Assembly (NCBI GenBank): GCA_902616855.1
Contig: CACMUL010000005.1
Span: 1-64,000, forward strand
Direction: 5' to 3'
Length of the DNA stretch: 64,000 nucleotides
DNA from: an uncultured Alphaproteobacteria bacterium
GTDB taxonomy: Bacteria; Pseudomonadota; Alphaproteobacteria; HIMB59
Below the pieces are notes generated by a model that had not been told where the DNA came from, did no database searches, and was given only the letters and a program-made list of their open reading frames with translations. A program made the position numbers and the translations under genes. Position 1 is the stretch's first letter, and each line of letters opens with the position of its first letter. This document shows positions 23,205 to 36,991 of the stretch, piece after piece.

Positions 23205-23280
23205 TATTTTTTCTCCAAATACCAAAGAATATTAGATTTATTGATTATGTAATTTTAATTAAAAAAATATTAATCTAATA

Positions 23281-24741
23281 TTAAAATTTTCTAATTAGGT
23301 TATAAAGCTGTTCAGTTTTGCCTGATTTTGGTACTTTTTGAATAGACGAAACCTTTTTTTGCTCTGCCAATGTTAAAGATTTAAGATCAAGCTGTTTTAA
23401 TAAAAAAGAAGAACCCTTAGTTATAGAGTATAAAAAATTTAATACACACCCAATCTGATAAGCTAACTTTTTTTCGTCACTTGATAAATAAGATAAATAG
23501 GTACTTAATTCTTTTTCAATAACCCTTTGGTCTAAGATATTTTTCGTGTGCCTTAAATACACTAAATATGCAATAAATACTTTTTCTGATTGTTCTATTC
23601 CTACTAGAGGACTATTTAATATTAGGTTGAATGCATAAGAAGCTCTAATTTTGGCTGTTTGCTCCCATCCCAAATCTGAAATAATACATGAGAGTTTTAT
23701 TACTCTCAGCTGGTTAGAGGACATTTTTAAATTTATAAATTTTAAATAAACATTTTTAATCCAAGCAAAAGTCTTTTTATTAAATATTAAAAAACGACAT
23801 CTACTTTTAGCTATTAATTCTAAAGAAATTTCAGTTGGATCTAAAAGCCTTTGCTTTTTGGGAAGATTTTCGTAAATGAAACCCTCTCTAATCCCGTATC
23901 TTGGATAAATAAACTGCTCGCAGTTTGATAATTTTAACACCTTGTCCAATACTTCTATTGCAATATGAATATGTTTTATTCTGTCGACAGAAATTTTCGG
24001 AATTTTTTGTAGATCATCAATCTCAATTTTTTGTAATTCTGATTTTAATTCATAAAAATTTTTCCGAGAGATACTCAAGTTATGTATTTCATTAAAGGGC
24101 AATTTATTAAAATAAATATAACATCTTGCAATTGTCCTAAATGCTCCACCAATTAAATAGAAGATTTTTTGATTTTTATGTTTTGAATTTATTTCTTTGT
24201 TAATTTTTTTATGCTCTTTATGTTCTTTAGTGAAGTTTAATATACCCAAAGGAAAAGAAGATATATTTTTAATTTTATGTGGTGTTATTTGTGCTAATTC
24301 AAGACTACCACCTCCCATATCAATAATGGTCCCATTGGCCCTAGGTATTGCAGAACGAACACCTAGTGTGGCATAGGAGGCCTCTTGTCTTCCAGATAAA
24401 GTTAAAACTTTTCCCTTAAAAACTTTTTGTATCTTATTTGTAATTTGTTTTTTGTTAGAAGCATTTCGAATTGCTGCAGTACACAAAGCGACAGAATGGT
24501 TAGGTTTTATTTCTTCAATTATTGAGTTAAAAAAAATTATTGAGTTGATACATTTTTTTTCAGCTTCTTTGCTGATCAATTTTGTTTTTGGAAGGTATTC
24601 ACCTAACCCACAAAAAAATTTTTTATTATAGAGCACATCAGGGCTTCTCATATTGCCCCTAAATACACACAATCTTACTGAATTTGACCCTATATCTATT
24701 ACTGCAATAGAATCTTTTTTATTAAGCATATTATATTGCAT
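23281..24741 (-). CDS. ppx: Exopolyphosphatase (Ppx/GppA family)
   Basis: 486 aa; IAVIDIGSNSVRLCVF, ATLGVRSAIPRANGTIIDMGGGSLEL. Confidence 0.92.
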   Translation of the reverse strand: MQYNMLNKKDSIAVIDIGSNSVRLCVFRGNMRSPDVLYNKKFFCGLGEYLPKTKLISKEAEKKCINSIIFFNSIIEEIKPNHSVALCTAAIRNASNKKQITNKIQKVFKGKVLTLSGRQEASYATLGVRSAIPRANGTIIDMGGGSLELAQITPHKIKNISSFPLGILNFTKEHKEHKKINKEINSKHKNQKIFYLIGGAFRTIARCYIYFNKLPFNEIHNLSISRKNFYELKSELQKIEIDDLQKIPKISVDRIKHIHIAIEVLDKVLKLSNCEQFIYPRYGIREGFIYENLPKKQRLLDPTEISLELIAKSRCRFLIFNKKTFAWIKNVYLKFINLKMSSNQLRVIKLSCIISDLGWEQTAKIRASYAFNLILNSPLVGIEQSEKVFIAYLVYLRHTKNILDQRVIEKELSTYLSYLSSDEKKLAYQIGCVLNFLYSITKGSSFLLKQLDLKSLTLAEQKKVSSIQKVPKSGKTEQLYNLIRKF

Positions 24742-34669: not shown

Positions 34670-35140
34670 ATGATTAAAATTCTTGTACTTTGTACAGGTA
34701 ACTCTTGTCGATCAATTATGACAGAGGGGCTTTTAAACCATTATGGTAAAGACTTTTTTAATGCTTATAGTGCAGGAAGCCACCCTGCAGGATATGTACA
34801 TCCATTAAGTATCAAAACATTAGAAAAAAATAAAATTTTCCTAGACAATTTTAAAAGTCAATCATGGGATGATTTTTCAGATATTAATTTTGATTTGGTT
34901 ATTACTGTGTGTGATAACGCAGCTGGAGAAACTTGCCCCGTGTATCTCAAAAATACATTAAAGGCACATTGGGGTGTAGCTGATCCTGCAAAATTTAAAG
35001 GCACTGAAGAGGAAGCTGAGATAGAATTTTTAAAAGTATTCAATGTTCTTAAAAAAAGATGTCTTGCACTAGTTCAAAATTATAAGCAAAACAACTTATT
35101 AAATATCGATCAAATAAAAGAAATTGGAAATTTAATCTAA
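34670..35140 (+). CDS. arsC: Arsenate reductase (low-MW phosphatase-like ArsC)
   Basis: 156 aa; ILVLCTGNSCRSIMTEGLLN, VITVCDNAAGETCPVY, HWGVADPAKFKGTEEE. Confidence 0.9.
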   Translation: MIKILVLCTGNSCRSIMTEGLLNHYGKDFFNAYSAGSHPAGYVHPLSIKTLEKNKIFLDNFKSQSWDDFSDINFDLVITVCDNAAGETCPVYLKNTLKAHWGVADPAKFKGTEEEAEIEFLKVFNVLKKRCLALVQNYKQNNLLNIDQIKEIGNLI

Positions 35141-35158
35141 ATTTAACTTTAATTTAAT
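35141..35158 (+). promoter_or_regulatory. Candidate PhoB box upstream of structured RNA
   Basis: Direct repeat ATTTAAC-TTTA-ATTTAAT (7-4-7), same architecture as the pstS and plcP boxes; -10-like TATTTT at 35168-35173. Confidence 0.45.
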
Positions 35159-35178
35159 ATAAATGATTATTTTATTAG

Positions 35179-35254
35179 GTGGAAGATTGGCATTTCCCCT
35201 GTGACTGAAACATAGACCTCCTCTACTTGTAGAAAAATCATGTCAATCTTCCCA
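35179..35254 (+). ncRNA. Candidate structured RNA (three-way-junction fold), strand not certain
   Basis: Closing helix GGAAGATTGGCAT (35181-35193) / ATGTCAATCTTCC (35240-35252), 13 bp with one G-U; internal hairpins CTGTG/CATAG and TCTAC/GTAGA; single-stranded CCTCC. Confidence 0.5.
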
Positions 35255-35256
35255 AA

Positions 35257-35604
35257 TTAATTAAATAAACCTAAGATTAAAACTATTCCATAGGCTGTTA
35301 GAGATAAAAAAATTGCAGCAGAGCCCAAATCTTTAGCTTTTTTTATTTTGTTTGACTTATCCATAGTAATTTTATCACAGGTATATTCTATTGCAGTGTT
35401 TAGAGCCTCAATACTAAGTATGAGCAAAGGTAAAATTATTAGCCAAAGTGTGAACAAAAGAGCTGGTTGAAAAATTACAATGTATAGAGCAGACAAGGGA
35501 AACAATAATAGCTCTCTTCTTGCTGCTTTTTCTTGAAGGAGAATTTTTAGGCCTCCAATTGAACACCAAAAAGCATCTACTATATTTTTATTTTTAAAAT
35601 CCAT
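35257..35604 (-). CDS. dgkA: Diacylglycerol kinase, DgkA type
   Basis: 115 aa, three TM; EKAARRELLLFP, SIEALNTAIEYTCDKI. Confidence 0.9.
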   Translation of the reverse strand: MDFKNKNIVDAFWCSIGGLKILLQEKAARRELLLFPLSALYIVIFQPALLFTLWLIILPLLILSIEALNTAIEYTCDKITMDKSNKIKKAKDLGSAAIFLSLTAYGIVLILGLFN

Positions 35605-36202: not shown

Positions 36203-36991
36203 ATGCAAATCAAAAAACATCGATCCATATTCATTTCAGACATTCATATTGGCATACGTGCTTCAAAAGTAAAGGAGCTCTTACACTTTTTAAAATATAA
36301 TGATTGTGATCATCTTTATTTACTTGGAGATATCATAGACGGATGGCGTCTAAAAAAAAATTGGTTTTGGAATCCTGATTTTAATACTTTCATACAAAAA
36401 GTTTTACGAAAAGCACGCTCAGGTACCAAAGTCTATTATATACCTGGAAACCATGATGAAGTTTTTTCAGATTATTGTGGTTTTTCATTTGCAAACATTA
36501 AAGTTCGAAAAAATAGAATTCATACAACAGCGAACAATAAAAGACTTCTCTTAATGCATGGGCATGAATTTGATGGAATAGTTCTAAATTCAAAATGGTT
36601 AGCAAAGATAGGTGCCGTCCTTTATGACTACTCTGTTTGGTTTAATAATATTTTAAATTTCTGTCGAAGAAAACTTGGTCTTTCGTATTGGTCTTTATCA
36701 GGATATTTAAAAACACGAGTAAAAGATGCTCAACGATATATTGAAAATTTTGAAAATGCATGTCTTGAGAGAATAAAAAAAAATAATTGTGATGGAATTG
36801 TTTGTGGTCATATTCACCATCCCCAAATAAAAAAAATTGGTGATAAGACATATCATAATCTAGGAGATTGGGTAGATAGCTGTAGTGCAATGGTTGAGGA
36901 CTTTAAAGGCAACTTGGAGTTAGTCTTTTGGAATGAAAAAAAAATCCAGTCTTTAGAAAAACAAACTCTTAATAAGGTATCTGCAGCTTGA
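36203..36991 (+). CDS. plcP: PlcP-like metallophosphoesterase (phospholipase C of phosphate-starvation lipid remodelling; LpxH-like superfamily)
   Basis: FISDIHIG, LLGDIIDGW, IPGNHDE, MHGHEFD, GHIHHP metallophosphoesterase motifs; followed by translationally coupled Agt-like glycosyltransferase; start set at internal ATG 36203. Confidence 0.82.
   Translation: MQIKKHRSIFISDIHIGIRASKVKELLHFLKYNDCDHLYLLGDIIDGWRLKKNWFWNPDFNTFIQKVLRKARSGTKVYYIPGNHDEVFSDYCGFSFANIKVRKNRIHTTANNKRLLLMHGHEFDGIVLNSKWLAKIGAVLYDYSVWFNNILNFCRRKLGLSYWSLSGYLKTRVKDAQRYIENFENACLERIKKNNCDGIVCGHIHHPQIKKIGDKTYHNLGDWVDSCSAMVEDFKGNLELVFWNEKKIQSLEKQTLNKVSAA

Follow-up and report, generated by a model that had tools for sequence, protein, structure and literature searches.

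In the 64,000-nucleotide stretch of DNA analysed here (the window), which comes from the abundant ocean lineage HIMB59, 116 bases separate the stop codon of arsC (35138-35140) from that of the convergent gene dgkA (35257), which raises the question of what occupies them. The gene order around this interval is sixA, ppk, phoR, pstSCAB, phoU, phoB, a low-molecular-weight (LMW) phosphatase/ArsC-like gene, dgkA, a gene for a SET protein and an LpxH-like gene; 'arsC' is a label of convenience for the LMW phosphatase/ArsC-like gene, whose product matched the LMWPc family and scored below the curated cut-offs for arsenate reductase. By its gene order, the window carries the flexible phosphate island published for HIMB59, and the passages of that account drawn on here describe movement of the island between species and an association with low-phosphate waters (Molina-Pardines et al. 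2023; PMC10734472). A text search of the main text of that paper returned no promoter, and the same passages name no RNA element (PMC10734472). Near position 36370, close to the LpxH-like gene, the identity of two other loci (L010 and L014) to the window dropped sharply, from ~98% to ~77%, and this is likely to be a recombination boundary of the island.

A sequence-only reading of the window had proposed that the interval after arsC holds a Pho-controlled, structured small RNA. Our preferred explanation, to which we assign a probability of about 0.6, is that the element encodes a small RNA, activated by PhoB, whose anti-Shine-Dalgarno loop would lower transporter synthesis in phosphate starvation. 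The features on which this rests are collected in Table 1.

Table 1. Features of the element downstream of arsC (window coordinates)
Feature	Position	Strand	Sequence	Basis or remark
Pho box	35141..35162	+	ATTTAACTTTA and ATTTAATATAA	Two 11-nt repeats; pstS-trained matrix
-10-like hexamer	35168..35173	+	TATTTT	Same offset in three lineages
Proposed small RNA	35181..35252	+		5' end placed near 35181, 3' end at or beyond 35252; covariance models R1/R2 and stable fold
Helix 5' arm	35181..35193	+	GGAAGAUUGGCAU	13-bp helix
Helix 3' arm	35240..35252	+	AUGUCAAUCUUCC	Two columns change on both sides
Conserved loop segment	35215..35230	+	GACCUCCUCUACUUGU	CCUCC core at 35217-35221

A conserved helix between arsC and dgkA

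The interval is closed by a helix of 13 pairs (12 Watson-Crick and one G-U), as had been noted from the letters, which encloses a 46-nt loop and ends 4 nt from the dgkA stop codon. The minimum-energy fold of the + strand (-24.6 kcal/mol, z = -3.75) was as stable in none of 200 shuffles; the fold of the - strand was no better than chance (z = -1.15), which goes against an earlier caveat that the structure might belong to the other strand. Among the 775 CCTCC sites in 857 kb of the window's own genome (G000), the stem around the CCTCC of the element was the strongest (-17.8 kcal/mol), and stems of that strength occurred twice in 20 shuffled copies of the genome, giving ~0.1 expected per genome.

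When homologues were aligned on the helix, 93.8% of the cells were paired, compared with at most 49% when the partner was slid by 1-3 columns. The compensatory substitutions that had been suggested as a check were found at two pairs, columns 10-70 (U-A to C-G) and 14-66 (C-G to A-U), and this covariation alone is not significant, as 156 of 500 shuffles of the five sequences reached the same number of both-sided pairs; only three diverged lineages were available for comparison. All of the wobble pairs (position 10 in the window; positions 6, 10 and 13 in G025) are G-U on the + strand and would be A-C on the other, which favours the + strand. The kept helix, the two pairs changed on both sides and the strand of the wobbles bear out the proposal of a structured RNA on the + strand.

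Less was conserved inside the loop. The two inner hairpins predicted earlier (CUGUG/CAUAG and UCUAC/GUAGA) both formed in the minimum-energy fold of the window; both are lost in the variant G030 (L010) and neither forms in the minimum-energy folds of G025 and G005, and they have no conserved role. The window had no Rfam match at the gathering threshold, a permissive scan returned chance hits only, and the suggested comparison with known elements therefore matched none.

As the sequence-only reading had cautioned, no U-tract follows the helix in the window, and the same was true of G005; the window also lacks a predicted terminator, that is, the GC-rich hairpin with U-tract that would end an independent small RNA gene. 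Only in G025 is the helix followed by CCUUUUU. With no terminator after the helix, a transcript from the window could enter dgkA in antisense, and the hairpin might be the 5' end of a Pho-driven antisense RNA to this convergent gene. We consider this improbable, as the gene downstream differs between lineages (dgkA in the window but an aquaporin-like gene in both G025 and G005), the U-tract of G025 precedes that gene, and the conserved loop would be left unexplained.

Distribution and promoter architecture

Covariance models (R1/R2) detected the element in 28 of the 52 HIMB59-family genomes (26 of the 52 by DNA search), each of the 28 having a single confident copy that adjoined arsC and shared its strand. 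The remaining 111 genomes of the order yielded no copy, and neither did a class-wide sample beyond the HIMB59 family. Hits in a sister family (f2) looked spurious, with 18 of 20 examined regions lying in a conserved methionyl-tRNA formyltransferase-like gene and two in other ORFs, and two HIMB59-family hits (L110 and L111) appeared to sit in coding sequence. A repeat or mobile element was rejected on the grounds that there is one copy per genome and no other comparable match in the window's own genome. Movement of the island between species accounts for the near identity of 25 of the copies; of the other three, that of G030 is a variant, and those of G005 and G025 have diverged (ArsC identity to the window of 67% and 62%, respectively). 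Presence of the element coincided with one type of PhoB: it occurred in 28/28 genomes with a PhoB at least 79% identical, versus 0/7 with a PhoB 56-62% identical and 0/17 with no PhoB match.

In all three lineages the element lies on the arsC strand ~40 nt downstream of the arsC stop codon, as would be expected of a 3' UTR element of a pstSCAB-phoU-phoB-arsC mRNA, in which the hairpin would protect or end the message, or be cut out of it, without a promoter of its own. The phosphate operon upstream would then bring phosphate control anyway, and 3'-UTR-derived small RNAs are known in Alphaproteobacteria (PMC10253847). We nevertheless think this reading rather unlikely: five genomes (G001, G003, G004, G006 and G007) have an orthologous arsC that ends without the element, a U-tract is absent on either strand in two of the three lineages, and the reading predicts neither a conserved CCUCC loop nor a Pho box and -10 hexamer at fixed spacing before the helix.

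The direct repeat ATTTAAC-TTTA-ATTTAAT (7-4-7, with an 11-nt period; 35141-35158) and the TATTTT hexamer described in the earlier reading are present where it had placed them. Repeat and hexamer alone are unremarkable, given that the window contains 50 loose matches and chance would give 42.7 +/- 7.3 at the 70% A+T of the genome. The Pho box is given weight because of the comparison between the three helix-anchored lineages, and not on account of the repeat alone. A matrix for which pstS Pho boxes from five lineages were the sole training set (two copies of the consensus YTTTMAYATTT) found its best site at one position in all three lineages, with 18 nt between the end of the site and the helix, namely ATTTAACTTTAATTTAATATAA in the window (p = 1.6e-4 per position), TTTTCATATTTTTTTCACATGC in G025 (8e-6) and ACTTCATTTGTATTTAACAATA in G005 (3.3e-3), the last being a weak box. 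The -10-like hexamers (TATTTT in the window, TATAAT in G025 and TAAAAT in G005) each lie 7 nt upstream of the helix. The joint Pho score of 23.4 was reached by 0 of 20,000 shuffles (maximum 5.7) and TAnnnT at one common offset by 1 of 5,000, values that overstate independence since the shuffles ignore common descent.

The spacing from box to helix is kept even though the sequence of the spacer differs between lineages, and the gap between Pho box and hexamer is 5 nt at the element and 4 nt at pstS. Across 15 kb of the island in G025, only two overlapping pstS sites outscored the Pho box of the element. In four genomes that lack the element, the DNA following arsC gave Pho scores of -2.2 to 5.4, the highest being a mediocre Pho-box-like match in G007. 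By computation, the Pho box thus stands at promoter spacing, as in a Pho regulon member, and the agreement of the three lineages argues for the Pho control that had been proposed. Elsewhere in the window, a Pho-box-like site at 23265-23286 (- strand) precedes a 526-aa ORF by 39 nt; this ORF has a signal-peptide-like start and may encode the alkaline phosphatase of the island. G025 has a similar site.

The CCUCC loop and its potential targets

ACCUCC (35216-35221) is unpaired in the window fold, in agreement with the earlier prediction, and every lineage has CCUCC, for the most part unpaired. The probability that CCUCC is unpaired was 0.79-1.0 in most variants, and the lowest values were 0.54 at two bases (L015) and 0.7 at one base (G005). 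The loop segment containing the motif reads UUCCUCCUUUACUUGU in G005 and ACUCCUCCUCUUUGC in G025. In G030, 13 changes fall within 70 nt (35193-35262), compared with ~1.5% elsewhere in the shared island (Poisson 1e-10); the helix still pairs despite these changes, and the 16-nt loop segment is unchanged while 10 other loop positions changed (p = 0.007). We read the cluster as either a short recombination tract or fast evolution of the loop. As a conserved, unpaired CCUCC is the complement of the Shine-Dalgarno core, it suggests that the loop acts by blocking ribosome binding, in keeping with the anti-Shine-Dalgarno-like character first ascribed to it.

Read on the - strand, the same motif is AGGAGG with a nearby ATG (AGGAGGTCTATG), at 3 nt in the window and 5 nt in G005, where a short peptide might start. 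This small ORF was rejected because relatives do not preserve its start codon: L016-type genomes have AGG in place of the ATG, and a start codon is absent there in L010 and G025. With the wobble pairs also favouring the + strand, we regard a role for the - strand as very improbable.

Use of Shine-Dalgarno sites seems rare in G000, in which 665 of the 799 ORFs of a simple scan lacked a match. AGGAGG at the proper distance was found at 20 genes (in a scan of 76% of the assembly, 857 kb), some of which must be chance, as permuted motifs gave 3-16 genes. Solute-binding proteins (by Pfam) made up 9 of these 20 but 0 of 40 random control genes limited in size to 220-600 aa (Fisher p = 1.1e-5). The enrichment defines mRNAs that such a loop could reach by predicted pairing, and the likely targets are the AGGAGG mRNAs of solute-binding proteins. 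Searches for extended complementarity in four genomes gave matches to the long loop motif that were not clearly above a reversed control, and no convincing target site. Within the operon, pstB was rejected as a target, since G025 does not retain the GGAGG site of this gene; pstS has a weak site only (AAAGGA). Many alphaproteobacterial small RNAs of this kind, though not all, use Hfq. No match to Hfq was found in five HIMB59-family genomes, among them that of G001, a single-contig relative of the same genus as the window (1,410,127 bp), so that the RNA would act without Hfq or with another protein.

The runner-up of the CCTCC stem scan was an intergenic hairpin on contig C4 of G000 (L192:5325-5378, - strand), AAAACUAGCUCC-[AACCUUAUUCCUAUCCUUACUUAUUCCUCC]-GGRGCUAGUUUU, which is a candidate sibling. 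Its sequence hardly varies across the HIMB59 family, unlike the diverging flanks, and strong matches were obtained in ~40 of the 52 family genomes, G001 included; many genomes have a -10-like TATAAA, a short U-run follows the stem, and Rfam gave no match above threshold. Its loop is CU-rich and anti-Shine-Dalgarno-like, and UCCU(y)UACUUrUU is common to it and the Pho element.

Related RNAs and a proposed role in phosphate starvation

The cuckoo RNAs/alpha-r14, such as NfeR1 of Sinorhizobium and the CcsR RNAs of Rhodobacter, are alphaproteobacterial hairpins with variable stems in which a loop anti-Shine-Dalgarno motif is unpaired, and their predicted targets are mostly transporter mRNAs; cuckoo RNAs comprise several hairpins that each carry CCUCCUCCC, and CcsR lies downstream of a DUF1127 gene (PMC10746234, PMC7143759, PMC3927594). 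The element likewise has its anti-Shine-Dalgarno motif unpaired in the loop. It differs in being one long hairpin with one motif, a 46-nt loop, CCUCCUYU and a Pho box, in lacking the CCUCCUCCC motif, its loops reading CCUCCUCUA, CCUCCUCUU and CCUCCUUUA, and, unlike CcsR, in lying between arsC and dgkA and not after a DUF1127 gene. AbcR RNAs are related to Rfam suhB and bind Hfq. These RNAs (alpha-r15) have CU-rich anti-Shine-Dalgarno motifs aimed at transporter mRNAs (PMC7143759), a likeness to the element, whereas the element has another architecture, no Rfam match and a host family in which Hfq was not found in the five genomes searched. SisA-D of Caulobacter crescentus are siblings that share an anti-Shine-Dalgarno-type 10-mer under different promoters (PMC12559287), and by description the HIMB59 family seems to resemble this in having one hairpin RNA of sigma70 type and another of Pho type. 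The element is a good candidate for a PhoB-activated small RNA of a known kind but of a new family and with a new arrangement.

As a PhoB-activated small RNA, it would work as follows. When phosphate is scarce, PhoB would bind the Pho box and drive a transcript starting near 35181, which would fold into a single hairpin of 13 bp and leave CCUCCUCUACUUGU unpaired in the large loop. The loop would pair with the Shine-Dalgarno sites of other mRNAs, and ribosome binding would be blocked. Since strong AGGAGG sites are rare and occur mainly at genes for periplasmic solute-binding proteins and at some catabolic genes, the RNA would probably reduce, while phosphate is short, the costly production of transporters for other nutrients; PstS, with its weak site, should escape. 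More tentatively, and with some doubt, the element and its sibling may form a two-RNA translational switch, in which a core sigma70-type hairpin RNA and a mobile, PhoB-activated hairpin RNA of the island, sharing the loop UCCU(y)UACUUrUU with CCUCC, would act on the small number of mRNAs that have a strong Shine-Dalgarno site, mostly those of solute-binding proteins.

If the preferred explanation is true, the element would connect the translation of uptake proteins for other nutrients with phosphate starvation, in a cell that is streamlined and has few regulators. Should the switch of two RNAs also exist, the Shine-Dalgarno site itself would mark the switchable mRNAs of this Hfq-less, streamlined and Shine-Dalgarno-poor cell.
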